From positions 1-29,865 of the IMG/VR virus record IMGVR_UViG_3300011113_000725: 29,865 bases of DNA; one strand, given 5' to 3'. The notes beneath the pieces were generated by a model. It had not been told where the DNA came from. It was given only the letters and a program-made list of their open reading frames with translations, and ran no database searches. Each line of letters begins with the position of its first letter. The first letter of the stretch is position 1. A program made the position numbers and the translations under genes. This document shows positions 1,938 through 29,865 of this stretch, in pieces. This DNA comes from a virus.

Positions 1938-2525
1938 ATGAGTTTTACTCCTTGGATTAATAGTTTTTACTTAAAGTCGCTTACTCCAATAAACAATAAT
2001 ATAGATATAACTGAAGTATCAAACCATATAGAAAGCGCGCAAGTTATTTATACTCGTGAGCTTCTTGGTAAATTACTTTATGACGATATAGATACAAAGT
2101 TCCAAACTGGAACTTTTTCCACTCGCGAAGCTGACTTATTTGACTTATGTAAATCAGCTATAGCTTATAGAGCTTCTGAGATAGCTATACCTTTTTTAGG
2201 TATTAAAATCCGTAATAAAGGCGTTGTAAGATTAAATGACGAATACGCGCAGCCGGCTTCAGTAGAAGAGATAAAGTATTTAAGAGCGGAACTAAAAAAT
2301 CGTGCTGAATATATGGAAAGTCAGGTACAAAACTACTTATATGAATATAACAACGATTTTCCACTTTGGACTTCTTCCAAGAACGCAGCCGGAGATAAAC
2401 AACTTATCTACCCTACACCACTTACTCCATATGATAGCGATATATTTTATCAAGATTACGATAAATTAAGAAGGAACCGCTATTATTATGGACCAAATAG
2501 TAATGAACCCGGGAACTCATATTGA
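1938..2525 (+). CDS. Head-tail connector (adaptor) protein
   Basis: A 195-residue, mainly helical protein. The pattern ITEVSNHIESAQVIYTRELLGKLLYDDI near the N-terminus, then SAIAYRASEIAIPF, resembles the connector family of Bacteroidota phages that I know as DUF6712, related to gp6-like adaptors that bind under the portal ring. Its place directly after the portal supports this. The gene ends at 2525 and overlaps by nine bases the 3' end of the antisense HNH gene. Assignment rests on motif memory and gene order. Confidence 0.68.
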   Translation: MSFTPWINSFYLKSLTPINNNIDITEVSNHIESAQVIYTRELLGKLLYDDIDTKFQTGTFSTREADLFDLCKSAIAYRASEIAIPFLGIKIRNKGVVRLNDEYAQPASVEEIKYLRAELKNRAEYMESQVQNYLYEYNNDFPLWTSSKNAAGDKQLIYPTPLTPYDSDIFYQDYDKLRRNRYYYGPNSNEPGNSY

Positions 2526-2969
2526 GTGATATAATTTTTTAGCCTCAAAATAAGCCTTAGAAGCTTTTTCTTTATCTTTAAATGAACCAAGATATATTCT
2601 TTGTTTATTTACTTTTATCCAAGCGGTATATGTAGAGCAGTTTTGGTTCTTTTGGTAGCCTTTAATTTTTTTTCTATTGTAATTATTTTCTTGTATTGAT
2701 ACTGAACGTAAATTATTTATTCTATTATCATTTTTTATTCCGTTTATATGATCCAAACAATCTACTACTTTTTTGAAAACCCAATAATAAATAAACTGGT
2801 GGGAATATAAATGATAATTTTTTTTATTGTAAATGAAAATTAATTGGTTATAGCCCATTTTATTTAAATTATTCATAACCTTACCTGTAATACCAAAAAC
2901 TTCGCCGGTATCAGGATTACAAGTATAGCCTTTTTCTATAGCTATTTTTATCTTTTCTTCTCGCGTCAT
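2517..2969 (-). CDS. HNH homing endonuclease with AP2 DNA-binding domain
   Basis: A 150-residue protein. The HNH-3 type nuclease core is at residues 57-98: H57, then DHINGIKNDNRINNLR at 73-88, with downstream Asn at 95-98. The C-terminal part (about 110-145), with YTAWIKVNKQRIYLGSF and KEKASKAYFEAKK, is an AP2-like DNA-binding domain. This two-domain form is typical of phage free-standing homing endonucleases. I chose the ATG at 2969. A TTG at 2981 in the same frame lies inside the TATATTTG promoter octamer and is not credible. The gene is antisense to the head operon and sits between connector and MuF-like genes, so it looks like a later insertion carrying its own promoter. Confidence 0.88.
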   Translation of the reverse strand: MTREEKIKIAIEKGYTCNPDTGEVFGITGKVMNNLNKMGYNQLIFIYNKKNYHLYSHQFIYYWVFKKVVDCLDHINGIKNDNRINNLRSVSIQENNYNRKKIKGYQKNQNCSTYTAWIKVNKQRIYLGSFKDKEKASKAYFEAKKLYHSI

Positions 2970-2978
2970 AAAACTAAA

Positions 2979-2986
2979 CAAATATA
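2979..2986 (-). promoter_or_regulatory. Promoter of the HNH gene (TATATTTG), short leader
   Basis: An exact TATATTTG on the minus strand. Only nine bases separate the octamer from the ATG at 2969, so the transcript has a very short leader or none. Confidence 0.65.
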
Positions 2987-5257: not shown

Positions 5258-5279
5258 TTATATTTGTATATCAATAAAC
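5258..5279 (+). promoter_or_regulatory. Early promoter P3 and leader, second copy of the P1 module
   Basis: TTATATTTG is followed by a leader to the ATG at 5297. All 22 bases match the minus-strand module at 264-285, and the leader after it is partly conserved. This is the only clear early promoter on the plus strand. It restarts transcription after the late head genes. Confidence 0.75.
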
Positions 5280-5296
5280 GATTAAACAATACGACT

Positions 5297-5479
5297 ATGA
5301 AAACAAAACAAGAGATTATCAATAGTATCAAAGATGTAGTATCAGGTATGAACCACCAAGAACAAGCTGACTTCATTTGGGCTATAATTACAGAAACCAG
5401 TATTAAAGACGCTTCTATGGATAGAATAGATGGTGGATACGAGATTATTTTAGAGATTGAAGAAGAAGATGAAGATTAA
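5297..5479 (+). CDS. Small acidic early protein, 60 aa
   Basis: Starts at ATG 5297 (MKTKQEIINSIKDVVSGMN) and ends in a strongly acidic tail (EIEEEDED). An in-frame TTG at 5264 lies inside the promoter octamer and is rejected. The protein is probably helical at the N-terminus (QEQADFIWAIITET) and resembles no family I can name. Small acidic early phage proteins often inhibit host enzymes or mimic DNA, but nothing here proves that. It is convergent with the minus-strand operon and overlaps the zinc-finger gene by four bases at its stop. Confidence 0.7.
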   Translation: MKTKQEIINSIKDVVSGMNHQEQADFIWAIITETSIKDASMDRIDGGYEIILEIEEEDED

Positions 5480-5919
5480 GAAAAGTATTTAATAACCAGT
5501 TCCAAATCTCCTACCATTTTAGGTATTTGTTTTTCTATAGTAAGATTATTATAGGCTTCTTTAATAGTTTTTCTTTTATACTTCATAAACATATTACATA
5601 ACCTAAAATGGTCTATATCAGTTTGTAGATTACGCCTAAACTTTACAAGTATTATCTTAATCTCCACCATATCTTCACGAGTAGGAACGGCTATAAATGG
5701 ATTTGTTTTGTATTTTTTTATATTTTCCGCACTTATATTTTTAAGTTCTTTATTTTCTTTTGACTTTACTAAATTATCTATTTTTTTTCCAAACTCTTTA
5801 GCCTTATCATAACAAGATAAACATACTTTAGTTCTAAAATAATAACGCTTTTGTTCGCAAAGCGGACATATTTGTCCGGTAAAATAATGAGTTGGTTTTA
5901 CCCGATAGGCTCTCGTCAT
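5476..5919 (-). CDS. Zinc-ribbon protein of unknown function, 147 aa
   Basis: The N-terminal part has two CxxC knuckles, C18-P-L-C21 and C33-L-S-C36, separated by 11 residues. This is the spacing of a small zinc ribbon. The rest is Lys-rich and probably helical, without a catalytic motif. Last gene of the minus-strand early operon, and its start overlaps the stop of the preceding gene by four bases. A nucleic-acid-binding or protein-adaptor role is plausible from the zinc ribbon and from the winged-helix partner upstream. Family not recognised. Confidence 0.75.
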   Translation of the reverse strand: MTRAYRVKPTHYFTGQICPLCEQKRYYFRTKVCLSCYDKAKEFGKKIDNLVKSKENKELKNISAENIKKYKTNPFIAVPTREDMVEIKIILVKFRRNLQTDIDHFRLCNMFMKYKRKTIKEAYNNLTIEKQIPKMVGDLELVIKYFS

Positions 5920-6443
5920 AGTAATAATTTATTTATATTTGACTGACGTTCAGCGGCTATAAAGGCCTTAAAACTTAAATCTATATGAAAACTCGGGGTC
6001 TCTATATTATCTCCTTCTTCGTAAATCCAAAAAGTAAAGTGAGATACCATACCTTCGCCTTCCATAAAATCCATATCAAGTAAATAGTCGTTGAACTTCA
6101 TTTTCTTTTCTATAAGAATAGATTTGAGTTCGTTATCTTGACGGAGTAGGACTTGTTCGTCTTCAACGTCAAGTTTAAAAGTAGATTTATTTAGGAGTTT
6201 AGTATTACCATGTAGATAATCTACTTCTACTTCGTCAGCTTCAAGATTACTTAAATCTCTATTCTCAAACCTACCCGGATATAAGTATTGTAGTTCAGTC
6301 ATTATATTCCTTCTTATCCAGTTCATATAAGTATCGTAAAGTAGTATCAGTTCATAATCTCGTTCCATAATTGTCGTTTTTTTTATTGAGTATCTCCAAT
6401 ATAATTTTTCTTCTTCTATAAGTAGATAATTTAATCGTTCCAT
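5916..6443 (-). CDS. Unknown protein, 175 aa
   Basis: A 175-residue protein with a helical charged N-terminus (MERLNYLLIEEEKLYWRYS) and a C-terminal half that alternates charged and hydrophobic residues (VSHFTFWIYEEGD, SFHIDLSFKAFIAAERQ). No motif recognised. It overlaps the 3' end of the winged-helix gene by 13 bases and the zinc-ribbon gene by four, so it belongs to the same operon. A role in early DNA metabolism is only suggested by context. Confidence 0.7.
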   Translation of the reverse strand: MERLNYLLIEEEKLYWRYSIKKTTIMERDYELILLYDTYMNWIRRNIMTELQYLYPGRFENRDLSNLEADEVEVDYLHGNTKLLNKSTFKLDVEDEQVLLRQDNELKSILIEKKMKFNDYLLDMDFMEGEGMVSHFTFWIYEEGDNIETPSFHIDLSFKAFIAAERQSNINKLLL

Positions 6444-6835
6444 GTAAATCCAAGATCGTCAGTTTTATTATCTTCAAGTCGTTTTTGTTTTAGGATATAT
6501 TCAAGTCCGTCAGCGGCTACTATTATTGAAGAAGCCCGTTCTCGTAAAGATTTTATATTTTGTAGGAGTTCTTCTTCGTCATAACTTACATAATAACCCC
6601 TTCTTGAAGAGAGGACTGGAAGTATTCCTTCGCTTCTCATAAAGTTTATTACTTTTCTTAAACGAACTCCAGAAAACTTATTGGTAAGTCCAAACTCAAC
6701 AAGTCGTTCATTTATACCCCGTATCAGCTGATCGGAGTATATTTTTTTACGAGGTCCAGTTTTTAGTAAAACCTTTATCAGTTTAGGTATCATATTTTTT
6801 TCTTCTTCGGTAAGTGGTTTGTTATTAAAAGCCAT
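6431..6835 (-). CDS. Winged-helix DNA-binding protein, possible replication or regulatory protein
   Basis: A 134-residue protein. Residues about 35-85 (YSDQLIRGINERLVEFG, GVRLRKVINFMRSEG, RRGYYVSYDEEEL) show the helix-turn-helix and wing of a short winged-helix domain, followed by LQNIKSLRERASSI. Proteins with this GVRLRKVINxxRxxG...GYYVS pattern are common in Bacteroidota phages and prophages, usually near replication genes, and I know them as replication initiator-like or regulatory wHTH proteins. The winged helix is clear; the biological role is inferred. It is the best candidate here for an origin-binding protein, as no polymerase or helicase is present. Confidence 0.7.
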   Translation of the reverse strand: MAFNNKPLTEEEKNMIPKLIKVLLKTGPRKKIYSDQLIRGINERLVEFGLTNKFSGVRLRKVINFMRSEGILPVLSSRRGYYVSYDEEELLQNIKSLRERASSIIVAADGLEYILKQKRLEDNKTDDLGFTWND

Positions 6836-6836
6836 G

Positions 6837-7025
6837 TTATTCAGTTATTTTTTTTAAGTTTATTAAATAAGTTTTATCACGGATATATTCTTCGTCAGTT
6901 ATATCTTTATAGATATATTTTTTACGAAGAGCTTTTAGTTCAGCTTCATAAATAGTTCCACCGAGTTTTTTTACTAAGTAGTCAATACCAAATATAACCT
7001 TAATTTTAATCTTATCGTTAATCAT
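6837..7025 (-). CDS. Small early protein, 62 aa
   Basis: A 62-residue basic, probably all-helical protein (MINDKIKIKVIFGIDYLVKKLGG...). Its pattern IYKDITDEEYIRDK looks like a short helical hairpin. First gene of the minus-strand operon that continues with the winged-helix gene one base further on. Its ATG lies 14 bases after a long-armed hairpin with a U-rich end (7039-7095), so its expression may be controlled by that element. Function unknown. Confidence 0.65.
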   Translation of the reverse strand: MINDKIKIKVIFGIDYLVKKLGGTIYEAELKALRKKYIYKDITDEEYIRDKTYLINLKKITE

Positions 7026-7035
7026 AATTTAAAAT

Positions 7036-7149
7036 ATAAAAACCCTTCAATAACAAAGATGTAGGCGAGGAGTTCTTTGATAAGAGAAGGGTTTTAGTTT
7101 GTAAAAAAAAGTAAACTTTAAATATTCATATTCATATTCTCGTCGCCTA
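7036..7149 (-). promoter_or_regulatory. Structured RNA element: two-stem hairpin with possible pseudoknot
   Basis: A perfect 10-bp outer stem pairs 7039-7048 with 7086-7095. A perfect 6-bp inner stem pairs 7054-7059 with 7074-7079. The apical loop 7062-7072 is complementary in 10 of 11 positions to 7139-7149 (CTCGTCGCCTA on the plus strand), which would make a pseudoknot. Read on the minus strand, the outer stem ends GAAGGGTTTTTATATTTT and stands 14 bases before the ATG at 7025. It could be an attenuator or riboregulator of the early operon, or the 3' end of a small RNA. I see no exact TATATTTG promoter just upstream of it. Confidence 0.45.
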
Positions 7150-7191
7150 TTATTATATTATGGAAAATTAATTTGTTTAGTTTTTTCTAAT

Positions 7192-7222
7192 AAAAACCCC
7201 TACTTAAGCGTCAAAGTAGGGG
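7192..7222 (-). terminator. Rho-independent terminator of the nuclease operon
   Basis: A perfect 9-bp stem pairs 7197-7205 (CCCCTACTT) with 7214-7222 around an 8-base loop. On the minus strand it is followed by TTTTT (7196-7192). It lies 33 bases downstream of the nuclease stop codon. Confidence 0.8.
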
Positions 7223-7254
7223 ATATATCATGAAAATAACCAACATAAGTTATA

Positions 7255-7719
7255 TTAATTTTTTTTATTTAGTTTAATAATCTTAAAAAAATCTTCAGCC
7301 TTTTTTCTATTTAATTTAAATCCTGAACTCATACCTCCGTCGCCGGCTTTTGATATATATTCGCTGTAATAGGGGTTTTTTAAGTGAGCCTTAAGTAGGT
7401 TCATTTTTGTAAAATAAATCAATCCTTCGTCAGGAAAATAGTAAAAAAACAAATCGGCTTTTGACTTCCAAGGTCCAGATAATTTACCCCTATAACTCGT
7501 CTCAATAAACATATTATCGGTTTTCTTAATAAAAGTTCCATAGCGGTCGGTTTTTACTTCAACAAGTAGTTCCGATTTACGCCTGAGTTTTATATCATAA
7601 TCTCCATTATTATTGAAGTGGATAAAAGTAAAACCCTTCTTTTCTAAATACTTCTTAATAACTTCTTCGCCCTTTTGACCCTGTATCAAGTCAAGCGAAA
7701 ACTTCTCGCCTAAATCCAT
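7255..7719 (-). CDS. PD-(D/E)XK family nuclease
   Basis: Counting from ATG 7719, the 154-residue protein begins MDLGEKFSLDLIQGQKGEE. It shows the PD-(D/E)XK core: a helix with E18/E19, then D42 in NGDYDIKL, then E54-V-K56 in LLVEVKTD. The following FIETSYRGKLSGPWKSKADLFFYY matches phage endonuclease relatives of this superfamily, which act on DNA ends, junctions or host DNA. Which substrate is cut cannot be told. An in-frame ATG at 7779, 15 bases after the previous stop, would add 20 hydrophobic residues (MFPILAVFYFFSFFGYNIYF). I prefer 7719 because the domain starts there, but a membrane-anchored form is not excluded. Confidence 0.72.
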   Translation of the reverse strand: MDLGEKFSLDLIQGQKGEEVIKKYLEKKGFTFIHFNNNGDYDIKLRRKSELLVEVKTDRYGTFIKKTDNMFIETSYRGKLSGPWKSKADLFFYYFPDEGLIYFTKMNLLKAHLKNPYYSEYISKAGDGGMSSGFKLNRKKAEDFFKIIKLNKKN

Positions 7720-7794
7720 AAAGTATATATTATATCCAAAAAACGAAAAAAAGTAAAATACCGCTAAAATAGGAAACATAATGATACTATATTA

Positions 7795-8115
7795 TTAAAT
7801 TACATACCAAGGTTTTTTTACGAGCGGTTCTCCATACATATTCTTAAGTTTATCTAAAAGGTTCTTCTTATCAGCTATTCGGTAAAGAAGTTCGTTTTGT
7901 TTAGCGAAATCCGATAACCATTTGTATTTTTGAGCTTCGCTTTGTATATCTACCAGTTCTAAATCTACAATAGTATATTGGACTTTACCACGACTTTTCT
8001 TGGTAAGTTCAATAACATACCCTCTCTCGGCAGAACTCCTTAAGAACTGATAATTAAATAATCCATTTTCTACGAGGTAATTAATCCATTTTTCGTTAAT
8101 CTCTAAATAAGTCAT
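7795..8115 (-). CDS. Unknown early protein, 106 aa
   Basis: A 106-residue soluble protein (MTYLEINEKWINYLVENGLF...) with a predicted alpha/beta mix and a basic C-terminus ending KKPWYVI. I recognise no family. It has its own promoter octamer at 8149-8142 with a leader of about 26 nt. It is followed within 15 to 75 bases by the PD-(D/E)XK nuclease, with which it probably forms a two-gene operon ended by the terminator at 7192-7222. The pairing suggests a partner or regulator of the nuclease, but this is inference. Confidence 0.7.
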   Translation of the reverse strand: MTYLEINEKWINYLVENGLFNYQFLRSSAERGYVIELTKKSRGKVQYTIVDLELVDIQSEAQKYKWLSDFAKQNELLYRIADKKNLLDKLKNMYGEPLVKKPWYVI

Positions 8116-8141
8116 AGTTTTTTTGTTTTTAAATTATATTA

Positions 8142-8149
8142 CAAATATA
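8142..8149 (-). promoter_or_regulatory. Early promoter P4 (TATATTTG)
   Basis: An exact TATATTTG on the minus strand, 26 bases upstream of the ATG at 8115. It lies between the structured region 8211-8511 and the 106-aa gene. Confidence 0.7.
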
Positions 8150-8210
8150 AACATATTTTTCTGTTTTACAAAAGATTTCTAAACTTTTTTTTTACTACAA
8201 AATATAATAT

Positions 8211-8511
8211 AAGTATTGAGAGGTCTTAATAGGTTTGACCCTCGGTAGCTTACCGACGCTACCATAATGAAAGTACAAGGTTTTACTTGACTAATACTTC
8301 AGTCGCCAACGCAGGCTGGAGAAGATAACGAATACTAAAAGTGCTCGCGCTGATCCAACCCCGTCAACGAGCGACAAAGTAAAGGTAAATAACAAAGTAT
8401 ATCGCCGTAGGAGGAACGGAAGCAAGAATAAACCAGTAAGTAGAAAGGTCCAAGTAATCTACTGAACTTTAGTAAGGTAATAAACTACTTTACTGGAGGA
8501 AGGGGGTTTAT
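8211..8511. ncRNA. Candidate structured non-coding RNA, about 300 nt, family not recognised
   Basis: The stretch 8116-8617 holds no credible gene. Inside it, 8211-8511 is visibly richer in G and C than its surroundings and full of base pairing. Domain 1: 8211-8217 pairs with 8293-8299, enclosing hairpins 8218-8243, 8244-8263 (GGTAGC/GCTACC) and 8271-8288 (AAGTA/TACTT). Domain 2: GCTCG at 8343-8347 pairs with CGAGC at 8368-8372, inside a weaker outer pairing 8332-8336 with 8396-8400. Domain 3: 8433-8443 pairs with 8485-8496, 11 bp with one bulge. The promoter at 8580-8587 points across it, so a minus-strand transcript is favoured. No T-loop, CCA, RNase P or tmRNA signature is seen. A replication origin is the main alternative. 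Confidence 0.5.
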
Positions 8512-8578
8512 ACCTAAACTATATTATTGTTTATTACATATGTTTTTCTTTCATATTCATTTTATTATTAATTATACT

Positions 8579-8605
8579 ACAAATATAAGGAACTTTTCTT
8601 AAATA
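8579..8605 (-). promoter_or_regulatory. Early promoter P5 facing the structured region (27-bp repeat, copy 1)
   Basis: Contains TATATTTG at 8587-8580. The 27 bases 8579-8605 are identical to 8900-8926. The first substantial feature downstream on the minus strand is the structured region at 8511-8211; only an 8-codon ORF (8560-8534) intervenes. The promoter therefore probably makes a non-coding RNA. Confidence 0.7.
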
Positions 8606-8617
8606 AGCACTAATAAA

Positions 8618-8896
8618 CTAAAGTTCACTTAAAATACTATTTAATTTTTTTTGTCGTTCATGTCGTTTTAATTTATCTGGTATAGTCCAAGCTACTTCAG
8701 TTCCGAGTTCTCGGTTTGTCGTAATAACAAAGTCGTAATCGGACTTTTTTAAGAAATCGCTAACTTTTTTTAACCAATTACTATCAATATGGTCTATATT
8801 GTAAATCTCATTTGGTATATCTAAATCGCTGAATAAACCTACCGCTATAACATATTCTTCATATCCGATTATTATATCGTTTGTTGTTATTCTCAT
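8618..8896 (-). CDS. Unknown early protein, 92 aa, nearly leaderless
   Basis: A 92-residue protein (MRITTNDIIIGYEEYVIAVGLFSD...) with a middle part (DYDFVITTNRELGTEVAWTIPD) that looks like alternating strands and a Lys/Arg-rich helical end. No family recognised. The ATG at 8896 is only four bases after the TATATTTG octamer at 8908-8901, so the message must be leaderless or nearly so, unless translation starts at a non-ATG codon further in. No second Met exists in the protein. It lies upstream of promoter P5 and the RNA-like region, on the same strand. Confidence 0.65.
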   Translation of the reverse strand: MRITTNDIIIGYEEYVIAVGLFSDLDIPNEIYNIDHIDSNWLKKVSDFLKKSDYDFVITTNRELGTEVAWTIPDKLKRHERQKKLNSILSEL

Positions 8897-8899
8897 ATA

Positions 8900-8926
8900 A
8901 CAAATATAAGGAACTTTTCTTAAATA
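8900..8926 (-). promoter_or_regulatory. Early promoter P6 (27-bp repeat, copy 2)
   Basis: Contains TATATTTG at 8908-8901 and is identical over 27 bases to 8579-8605. It drives the 92-aa gene. The upstream part resembles the P1 upstream region (ATTTAA, then GAAAA). Confidence 0.72.
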
Positions 8927-8962
8927 TGAATAACAAATCCAAACTTTTTTTATATAATATGT

Positions 8963-10681: not shown

Positions 10682-11848
10682 ATGACGCTAAACTTTAAAA
10701 CTACACCAGTTTTTACAAAGAACTATGAAGCCCTACAAAATGAAGATATACGATTTATTATCAATATGGGCGGAACTCGTAGTAGTAAAACTTGGAGTAT
10801 AAGTCAGCTGATAATACTTTATTGTTTAATAAAAGAAAAAAGGGTAGTATCAGTAGTAAGAAAATCTTTTCCTTCATTACGAGCTACCGTAATGAGAGAT
10901 ATAATAGAACTACTCCGTGAATATGAACTATATGACGAACGACAACATAATAAAACCGAAAACATATATAACTTTAGTAATGGTTCTAAAATAGAGTTCT
11001 TCTCGCTTGACGATAGCCAAAAGATAAGGGGTAGAAAACGAGACCTTCTTTTTATGAACGAAGCTAATGAACTGGATTTTGAGGAGTTTAACCAACTAAA
11101 CTTTAGAACAAATGATAAAGTTATTATGGACTTTAATCCAAGCGAAAGCGACCATTTTATATACGACCTACTTGAAGATAAAAGGTCAGTTAAAATCCAC
11201 TCTACTTTTCGTGATAATCCTTTTTTAAGTAAAGATATAGTAAGAGAGATTGAGGACCTTATATCAAAAGATAATACGCTTTATCAAGTATATAATTTAG
11301 GACTTCCAGCCGACAAGGGACATATCGTATATAACCACCAAAAACCTTATTATGACGAACCGCTCCATATAGAAGAAGAACTTATTGGTATTGACTTTGG
11401 TTATTCTCACCCTACCGCCGTTATCAGTTTAAGATTTAAGGAAGATATGGTATTTTGTAAAGAACTACTTTATCAGTCGTATCTTACTTCAGCCGATTTA
11501 ATACTCCGACTAAAAGATATGAACTTAATTACAAAAACTTTTATAGCTGACGGAGCAAGACCCGAGATTATTGAAGATATGAGGCGAGCTGGATTTATAG
11601 TTCATATAGCCGATAAGAACATAAAAGCCGGTATTGACGCCGTAAAAAGTCAACATATCTTTTATCACGGCGAAAGTTTTAATTTAATAAAGGAGTTTAA
11701 GAACTATAAATGGAAAATAATAGGAGATAAAATAACCGAAGAACCGTTAAAACTAAATGACGATTTAATGGACGCTATGCGTTATGGAGTTTATTGGTAT
11801 AAAAAATTACGAAGGAGTAGTGGAGGTTTTGACTTCGCTAATTTTTAA
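10682..11848 (+). CDS. terL: Terminase large subunit (PBSX-like)
   Basis: A 388-residue DNA-packaging motor. The ATPase has a Walker A motif GGTRSSKT at residues 30-37 and a Walker B region DLLFMNEAN near 120-128 with the catalytic Glu. The C-terminal RNase H-like nuclease has IGIDFGYSHPTAV near 233-246 with the first metal-binding Asp, and LNDDLMDAMRYGVYW near 357-371 with the later acids. Length and motifs fit the PBSX/Terminase_3 group. Such terminases cut concatemers and pump DNA through the portal. The sigma-like gene starts two bases after its stop. Confidence 0.93.
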   Translation: MTLNFKTTPVFTKNYEALQNEDIRFIINMGGTRSSKTWSISQLIILYCLIKEKRVVSVVRKSFPSLRATVMRDIIELLREYELYDERQHNKTENIYNFSNGSKIEFFSLDDSQKIRGRKRDLLFMNEANELDFEEFNQLNFRTNDKVIMDFNPSESDHFIYDLLEDKRSVKIHSTFRDNPFLSKDIVREIEDLISKDNTLYQVYNLGLPADKGHIVYNHQKPYYDEPLHIEEELIGIDFGYSHPTAVISLRFKEDMVFCKELLYQSYLTSADLILRLKDMNLITKTFIADGARPEIIEDMRRAGFIVHIADKNIKAGIDAVKSQHIFYHGESFNLIKEFKNYKWKIIGDKITEEPLKLNDDLMDAMRYGVYWYKKLRRSSGGFDFANF

Positions 11849-11849
11849 T

Positions 11850-12440
11850 ATGAATAAAAAACTAATAGACCAGTTTATAGTAAATCGTCAGGAGTTTTTA
11901 CTCGGCGTATCAAGGAGTATTCTTAAAAAGAAGAACGATGTAGCCGAGGATTTATTACACGACCTTTTTATTTATCTATACGAAAACTTCCAAAAGATAA
12001 AGTATATAAAAGATGAGACCTCACTTTTAGCTTTTTCTGTATCTTGGATTAAACTACAAGTAAAGTGGAAAGGAACCGGATATAAAAAAACTTATGTAAT
12101 GGAATACGACGAACTACCCTTAAACCTTCCACTAAACGAAGATTTTACTGATATACTCCACTCGGAAGACCCGTATATAAAAGATATAAGAAGAATATGG
12201 AATAGCGAACAAGCTGATAAACTACAAAAGATTTATCAGTATTTACCTCGTTTATCAAAAGTAAATCAAATCTTATTCCAAGCTTATTTTATTGAAGGAC
12301 TTACCTATGATAAAATTAAAGATAATTACGACTTCTTTAGAGATAAACCAAACGGACGTCAGTTCTATAAATCTAAAAAGTCAATATATAACCTTATGAA
12401 GGAACTAAAAAAAGAACTCCTCCTATGTACGAAGTTATAG
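11850..12440 (+). CDS. Sigma-70-like RNA polymerase factor (phage-encoded)
   Basis: A 196-residue protein beginning at ATG 11850, the first base after the TerL stop being skipped; an upstream ATG at 11784 would lie wholly in the terL frame overlap and is rejected. Residues about 10-70 (VAEDLLHDLFIYLYENFQKI, then LLAFSVSWIKLQVKW) resemble sigma region 2. Residues about 130-190 (LPRLSKVNQILFQAYFIEGLTYDKI and KSKKSIYNLMKELKKEL) resemble region 4, with a helix-turn-helix interrupted by a short FFRDKPNGRQFY insert. This ECF-like layout suggests it redirects host RNA polymerase to late promoters. It is coupled to terL and to the next gene. Confidence 0.72.
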   Translation: MNKKLIDQFIVNRQEFLLGVSRSILKKKNDVAEDLLHDLFIYLYENFQKIKYIKDETSLLAFSVSWIKLQVKWKGTGYKKTYVMEYDELPLNLPLNEDFTDILHSEDPYIKDIRRIWNSEQADKLQKIYQYLPRLSKVNQILFQAYFIEGLTYDKIKDNYDFFRDKPNGRQFYKSKKSIYNLMKELKKELLLCTKL

Positions 12441-12902: not shown

Positions 12903-13499
12903 ATGATAAGAAAACTTATATCTTACTTTATTGGAGTTCTCAAAATCGGTAAAGGTCAAAAATCTTGGAAGAATATAAAACTACACCAAGCTCAAGAACT
13001 TCTACAACTTGATAAAGAAGGTATAGATTTACTTGTAAGTCAAATGGCTATTGTTCTTGATACTGACGAGGCTTTTGTAGAAAACTTACCTTTTAATAAA
13101 ATACAAGAGTTCGCTGAAGAATATGAGTTCTTACAAAAAACTCCTGACGCTAAATGGATTAAAACTTTTAAGATTGAAGGTAAAAGGTTCGGTATGGTTC
13201 CGCTAAACGACCTTACTTTAGCTCAAATTATAGATATAGAAGAATACTGGAACGACGGATATATTAAAAACTTACATAAGATTTTATCAGTTCTTTTTCT
13301 ACCGGTAAAGTCGTATAACCCGATTACAAAAAAGTATAAATTACAAGAATATAAACCTGACGAAGATATAGAAAACCTACTTCTTAATACGGATATGGAG
13401 ATTATTTGGAGTAATCTACTTTTTTTTTATCATACCGAACAGATATATTTAAAAGGTATGAAGGACTATTTGGAGGCGGAACTGAAGAAGAGGAAGTAG
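12903..13499 (+). CDS. Tail assembly chaperone, short form (gpG-like)
   Basis: A 198-residue, helical, charged protein (WKNIKLHQAQELLQLD..., VLDTDEAFVENLPFNKIQEFAEEYEFL) ending in LEAELKKRK. It resembles tail assembly chaperones, which coat the tape measure protein until the tail tube forms around it. The main support is the arrangement. Near its end a long overlapping -1 frame begins and continues to 13693, with a canonical slippery heptamer T TTA AAA at 13448-13454, as in the G/GT system of siphophages. The tail terminator-like gene follows. Confidence 0.65.
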   Translation: MIRKLISYFIGVLKIGKGQKSWKNIKLHQAQELLQLDKEGIDLLVSQMAIVLDTDEAFVENLPFNKIQEFAEEYEFLQKTPDAKWIKTFKIEGKRFGMVPLNDLTLAQIIDIEEYWNDGYIKNLHKILSVLFLPVKSYNPITKKYKLQEYKPDEDIENLLLNTDMEIIWSNLLFFYHTEQIYLKGMKDYLEAELKKRK

Positions 13500-13693
13500 A
13501 AGAAGAAAGTAGGCTACTTACTATTGAAGAAGTAAGGGCTAAAAATAATATAGAAAAGAACCGTAAATGGAGCTGGATAAGTTTAGTATGGATTTTAACC
13601 GGAGGAGATATAACTAAAACCGATTTAGTTTTAAGAAAATCTTTTGGAGAAGTTCTTATATGGTTATCGTATAAAAAAGAAAATGGAGTATGA
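13454..13693 (+). CDS. Tail assembly chaperone, -1 frameshift extension (gpGT-like)
   Basis: In the -1 frame the sequence is open from about 13412 to TGA at 13691-13693 and has no ATG to start it independently. Slipping at T TTA AAA (13448-13454) gives a fusion of about 263 residues with 79 new ones. These are a Gly/Glu linker (GLFGGGTEEEEVEEESR), a helix (LTIEEVRAKNNIEKNRK), then WSWISLVWILTGGDITKTDLVL... ending LIWLSYKKENGV. The W...L..L..GDITK...VL..LSY pattern is what I know from the extension part of Bacteroidota phage tail chaperones. The stop overlaps the next start as ATGA. A T9 run at 13420-13428 is a second possible slip site. Confidence 0.72.
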   Translation, partial: RYEGLFGGGTEEEEVEEESRLLTIEEVRAKNNIEKNRKWSWISLVWILTGGDITKTDLVLRKSFGEVLIWLSYKKENGV

Positions 13694-29686: not shown

Positions 29687-29712
29687 TTCGTAAATCCAAT
29701 ATAAATGAAGAG

Positions 29713-29748
29713 CCCGACTATATTTTAGTCGGGTTTTTCTTTTTATTT
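29713..29748 (+). terminator. Rho-independent terminator of the structural operon
   Basis: An 8-bp stem CCCGACTA / TAGTCGGG (29713-29720 with 29726-29733), a 5-base loop, then TTTTTCTTTTTATTT. Strong on the plus strand. The opposite strand has no U-run after the stem, so the convergent gene is not terminated by it. Confidence 0.88.
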
Positions 29749-29865
29749 ATATTTTTCGTTCAAAGCTTTTACTTCAGCGAACTCGTTTTGAGTTATACCT
29801 TCTTTACAAGCTTTTAGAAGGAGATTTGATAATTTACTAAAGTCGTCAATAGAAGCTTCTGTAAG
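29743..29865 (-). CDS. C-terminal 40 codons of a small protein entering at the right edge
   Basis: A minus-strand frame that is open from base 29865 (first base of a codon, LTEASIDDFSKLSNLL...) to TAA at 29745-29743. It reads as a helical end (KLSNLLLKACKEGITQNEFAEVKALNEKYK). It has no start within the window. In a circular reading it is the continuation of the gene at 246-1, in the same frame, giving a protein of 122 residues. The final stop overlaps the U-run of the plus-strand terminator. Confidence 0.75.
   Translation of the reverse strand, partial: LTEASIDDFSKLSNLLLKACKEGITQNEFAEVKALNEKYK

Follow-up and report, generated by a model that had tools for sequence, protein, structure and literature searches.

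The window, that is, the whole stretch of DNA analysed here, is a virus record of 29,865 bases. A minus-strand frame of 144 codons is open across its joined ends (29687–29865 and 1–284), which suggests that the record, although classed as linear, probably represents an entire tailed-phage genome, circular or permuted. Genes for the large and small terminase subunits and a portal protein were recognised. The sequence TAnnTTTG, the -7 box of Bacteroidota, occupies positions -12 to -5 relative to the transcription start in Flavobacterium (PMC9723704). It has 56 matches in the genome compared with 35 ± 6 by chance, and on this sequence evidence the phage has Bacteroidota-type promoters and probably infects a member of that phylum.

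The early genes lie on the - strand (5476–8896) and the remaining genes are mostly on the + strand. Reading along the - strand, the order is promoter, 92-aa ORF, promoter, a GC-rich island, promoter, 106-aa ORF, a 174-aa nuclease-like protein and a terminator. The 174-aa protein is a probable PD-(D/E)XK nuclease, common to several relatives. Elsewhere in the genome, a second frame remains open to about 13688 beyond a 198-aa ORF on the + strand (12903–13688), although no ORF begins in it. This arrangement resembles the programmed frameshift found in genes for tail assembly chaperones, and in many relatives the 198-aa gene is likewise followed by a gap of about that length. The gene at 11784–12440 (+), after the large terminase subunit, is kept in relatives and has a weak match to a phage sigma factor (phrog_1740, E 4e-4), and its product is a possible late sigma factor. 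The protein encoded at 2517–2981 (-), between late genes of the opposite strand, occurs twice in the related phage L003 (46% and 41% identity) and, judging by its sequence, is probably a homing endonuclease.

The island itself (Table 1) has a GC content of 41.6%, compared with 16% in both intergenic flanks (8116–8228 and 8522–8617) and 33% in the genome as a whole; 5.2% of the genome's 293-nt windows are as GC-rich. The original prediction had described a G+C-rich region that encodes no protein, and both statements hold. No ORF reaches 50 aa, stops occur in all six frames, and a PHROG search of every frame gave no trace of a protein. A hidden or decayed protein gene was rejected on these grounds.

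Table 1. Features of the island and the adjoining early region; p, pairing probability in the predicted ensemble
Feature	Coordinates	Strand	Remarks
Intrinsic terminator	7197–7222	-	After the nuclease gene; sole strong one downstream on the - strand
Early 174-aa protein	7255–7779	-	Conserved D62, E74 and K76; weak likeness to UPF0102/YraN
106-aa orphan early ORF	7795–8115	-	On the other side of the island; no relative found
106-aa ORF promoter	8142–8149	-	TTTG, 19 nt, TATATTTG; gene begins 22 nt after predicted start
Alternative fold	8202–8524	-	14-bp closing helix 8524–8510/8216–8202; p 0.95
Candidate structured RNA core	8229–8521	+ favoured	Fold and composition
Closing stem, outer	8231–8234 (AGGU)/8512–8515	+	p about 0.9
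Closing stem, inner	8238–8243 (ACCCUC)/8502–8507	+	p about 0.9; 7 bp with terminal G-U
Hairpin 1, GGTAGC/GCTACC	8244–8263	+	Flush with closing stem; p 1.0; same on both strands
Hairpin 2	8272–8292	+	7 bp; p 0.93
Hairpin 3	8297–8321	+	10 bp, one bulge, two G-U (A-C mismatches on -); p 0.97
Hairpin 4	8329–8347	+	6 bp; p 0.9
Stem 5, ACGAGCGA/TCGCCGT	8367–8408	+	7 bp; p 0.93
Hairpin 6, GTAG/CTAC	8440–8462	+	4 bp; p 0.86
Hairpin 7	8467–8498 (8467–8479/8486–8498)	+	13 bp, three G-U pairs; p 0.99
8-codon ORF MNMKEKHM	8534–8560	-	15 nt after start 8575; no real gene there
Sigma-A type Bacteroidota promoter	8580–8605	-	-7 box TATATTTG 8587–8580; predicted start 8575; no -33 TTTG
92-aa orphan early ORF	8618–8896	-	Adjoins island; no family
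Second identical promoter-repeat copy	8902–8926	-	Box 8908–8901; start on the A of the 92-aa ORF's ATG

The 25-nt repeat AAATATAAGGAACTTTTCTTAAATA occurs in two exact copies, at 8581–8605 and 8902–8926, where none is expected by chance. Read along the - strand, it finishes with the box TATATTTG, in agreement with the earlier claim that the region has its own promoter repeat pointing across it. From the second copy, the mRNA of the 92-aa ORF is predicted to be leaderless. With starts placed five bases past the last base of the box and boxes inside genes left out of the count, the genes behind all five other boxes that directly precede real genes begin 0–26 nt after the predicted start; for the boxes at 2986–2979, 284–277 and 5259–5266 the distances are 5, 26 and 26 nt. 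In related phages the motif AGAAAAGTTCCTTATATTTG precedes genes and is accompanied by a proper -33 TTTG. Transcription of the - strand across the island is therefore likely. By sequence match, then, the island has a promoter of its own, on the strand opposite to that favoured by its fold. No + strand promoter for the island was found. The motif TCYAAACTTTTTTT, at 8178–8194 and 8938–8954, was considered for that role and rejected: it lies about 30 nt upstream of two - strand boxes, and because the spacing to both is identical, it is better read as an A-tract upstream element of the - strand promoters. No terminator-like site flanks the island on either strand, and Rho or processing may end the transcript.

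All the genes of the stretch around the island are on the - strand. A transcript running from 8575 to the terminator at 7222–7197, with no other - strand terminator ahead of it, might serve the early operon as a long structured leader whose fold tunes expression or RNA stability. The 8-codon ORF, which is present together with the promoter, would then encode a leader peptide, followed by the structured part, the 106-aa ORF and the nuclease gene. We regard such a leader as rather improbable, since the 106-aa ORF has a better promoter of its own (8149–8142) with a 22-nt leader, and since the fold of the - strand is the poorer one (z -2.4 to -2.9), with U-rich unpaired bases. The 8-codon ORF was not seen in the fetched loci other than that of the window.

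The region was originally predicted to be structured and RNA-like, and the predicted fold bears this out. On the + strand, 8229–8521, bounds picked after the fold had been inspected, is more stable than the mean of dinucleotide shuffles by a z of -3.83, with none of 600 shuffles as stable. The bounds first proposed, 8200–8520, gave -3.17 (1/600), and the - strand of 8229–8521 gave -2.38. Of 202 non-overlapping genome windows, taken on both strands, 0.5% (1/202) reach -3.83 and 2% reach -3.17. A GC-regressed scan at 300 nt leaves the region outside the top 12 of the genome, 5.8% of the 150-nt windows go beyond a z of -3 on one or other strand, and coding windows sometimes fold as well as the island. 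Because the genome windows, the GC-regressed scan and the 150-nt windows calibrate it in this way, the fold is not counted as proof of an RNA; its modelled stability appears notable rather than extreme.

The individual helices proposed earlier fared unevenly. A 7-bp closing stem is predicted (p about 0.9); it encloses about seven hairpins rather than three. The 11-bp stem with one bulge can form (CCAGTAA-GTAG 8433–8443 with CTAC-T-TTACTGG 8485–8496), but only to the exclusion of the 13-bp hairpin preferred by the ensemble (p 0.99). The segments GCTCG and CGAGC (8343–8347 and 8368–8372) are present, but both pair elsewhere in the ensemble.

Composition also distinguishes the strands. The + strand of the island has an AT skew of +0.25 (0.251), in the opposite sense to all the flanking early genes, and 30 of the 33 genes, including all seven early genes of the - strand, are A-rich on the sense strand. 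Among unpaired bases, 57% are A in the + fold and 49% are U in the - fold; A-rich loops are typical of natural folded RNAs. Five G-U pairs in the 13-bp and 10-bp hairpins become A-C mismatches on the - strand. The promoter, however, reads along the - strand while energetics and composition favour the +, a conflict that the original prediction had missed. An RNA on the + strand, which has fold energy, the A-richness of the loops and the asymmetry between strands on its side, is rated slightly better than even, and one on the - strand, to which the promoter points, somewhat below even. If the + strand is the true one, the - strand promoter would yield an antisense transcript of the island RNA.

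The prediction that the region belongs to no known family was supported by Rfam 15, which gave no matches at gathering thresholds in the whole window and none at E≤10 in 8000–8700. A tRNA or tmRNA was rejected, since ARAGORN found no genes and Rfam was without a match. A DNA search of GenBank phages and plasmids with a word size of 11 found no homologue of the island. In IMG/VR viral contigs, exact patterns 16, 18 and 20 nt long gave only chance hits in unrelated sequence, as did an 18-nt pattern in genome contigs. Synteny was searched in at least 28 terminase relatives, the longer contigs among them being covered in large part, and no homologue of the island was found. A DNA search of 26 whole records found none either, the best E being 0.016 over 23 nt, and further parts of those records gave the same outcome. 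With two single-sequence covariance models and 0.5 Mb of sequence the window itself was the sole match at E<0.3, and one of the two found nothing in a further 0.95 Mb. Absence from these collections does not amount to uniqueness, as they may omit records very near this genome. An antisense target within the phage genome was rejected: shared or complementary 12-mers number 7 compared with 2.5 ± 2.3, not clearly enriched, and none extends to 14 nt.

Could the island be inert or decaying DNA, for example the site of a replaced gene, where the promoter and start codon are left and a foreign insert, being GC-rich, folds by chance? A promoter and a proper start that lead to only eight codons and a stop are in keeping with this, as are the homologues not found and a fold inside the upper tail of the genome. 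There is, however, no protein trace in six frames, the island is sharp, its helices are compact and its bias to the + strand goes beyond dinucleotide shuffles. In general, too, phages with small genomes seldom retain as much as 300 nt that has no use. Inert DNA is accordingly judged unlikely, at about one chance in a handful.

A DNA site, either a replication origin or a terminase recognition site built of GC-rich hairpins between AT-rich stretches, is less probable than any of the other explanations. The flanks are indeed AT-rich, the small terminase gene lies about 1.8 kb away, the island being upstream of it, and replication genes were not recognised among the proteins scanned. The origin, which the original prediction had offered as an option, is weakly disfavoured, as no repeat family or repeated iterons were found within 8200–8540. 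A packaging site should be kept in relatives sharing the terminase genes, and the island is absent from them. Nor is a strand-asymmetric composition expected of a DNA site.

The surroundings of the island are themselves variable. Its neighbours are cassettes of a promoter and a small gene without relatives; no homologue of the 92-aa ORF was found in the terminase relatives, and neither of the neighbouring small ORFs nor the island occurs in relatives whose terminase is 52–66% identical. A row of short cassettes that varies between relatives is the usual appearance of a phage host-takeover region. The best single reading, put at just short of an even chance, is that this hypervariable early region has in the island an accessory cassette of about 290–370 nt for a non-coding RNA, on either strand. 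The non-coding GC island, the above-chance multi-hairpin fold with closed ends and the promoter match all point to it. The original description of a structured, non-coding region of no known family with a promoter of its own holds, and the proposal of a phage ncRNA is plausible. Such an RNA would be transcribed early in infection and would act as a folded molecule inside the cell, its likeliest mode of action being to bind some protein or RNA of host or phage while the host is taken over. Variable early phage loci of this sort often serve anti-defence, and assigning that role to the island RNA is a guess from location; beyond position, nothing was found in favour of packaging or anti-defence.

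A bolder proposal is that the island represents a type of phage RNA not described before, about 290 nt long, closed at its ends and bearing several hairpins, which Bacteroidota phages would produce early, possibly as a folded inhibitor of a host defence and possibly under the control of an antisense transcript from the promoter on the opposite strand. This is unlikely, about on a par with inert DNA. The island is an orphan candidate RNA, an interesting lead rather than a demonstrated new family. If it is a functional RNA, it would enlarge the very small set of structured RNAs known from Bacteroidota phages by one of considerable size, offer a concrete target of about 300 nt for further work, and indicate that variable early host-takeover cassettes can hold RNA genes besides small proteins. 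If inert, it would illustrate how readily a GC-rich insertion in an AT-rich phage genome is mistaken for an RNA.

In some relatives the early region has structured non-coding stretches of its own, a point in favour of the RNA reading (L123:290–610, L102:780–1370, L177:7160–7453, L109/L114/L118 and L180:7605–7725). No sequence shared between these stretches and the island could be detected, and homology is not claimed. On the + strand of L109:256–420, L118:501–660 and L114:600–740 there is a strand-specific structured RNA in which a T-arm-like hairpin (CGGTTCRANTCCG) precedes an intrinsic terminator; it is called by neither ARAGORN nor Rfam and is possibly a tRNA-like RNA. Long near-perfect hairpins in non-coding early regions of L102 (820–930) and L123 (515–585) have loops that share (G/A)CTGCAA. 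The motif CTTAACTTCTTAACTA(A)CCCACC is common to L123, in two copies (620–645 and 749–772), and L177 (7240–7262), and adjoins the structured non-coding stretches of both. At L180:7605–7725 (+) a TATATTTG promoter is followed by about 100 nt without an ORF and a perfect terminator hairpin, which is likely a small RNA gene.

Several known systems resemble the island in part. Retron msr-msd RNAs, group I and II introns and the guide RNAs of IscB and TnpB are structured RNAs of about 200–400 nt with paired ends. The island is comparable to the retron RNA in size and paired ends, but there is no reverse transcriptase, PF00078 being absent from the whole record. Unlike group I and II introns it is not inside a gene and has no Rfam match, and the transposon nuclease that would accompany an IscB or TnpB guide RNA is not among the families found in the genome. 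GOLLD and ROOL, which usually occur near tRNA islands, are likewise phage-encoded and non-coding, with many hairpins and no assigned function. They differ in being large and ornate, with many GOLLD RNAs exceeding 800 nt (PMC12286853), whereas the island is about 290 nt, has no Rfam match at E≤10 and lies in a genome without tRNA genes. The small-RNA anti-CRISPRs known as Racr mimic a single CRISPR repeat (PMC10651486). The island too would be a small phage non-coding RNA acting against the host, but it is much longer, and among the CRISPR-DR families of Rfam it has no match. Flavo-1, presumably an RNA family present in Rfam, was not found in the window by the Rfam search. The Rfp RNAs of Flavobacterium are independent non-coding transcripts with a median length of 176 nt, and 40% of those that are not antisense are strongly folded (PMC9723704). 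They are host transcripts shown by RNA-seq, whereas the island is known from its sequence, and they share with it the same type of promoter, TAnnTTTG.
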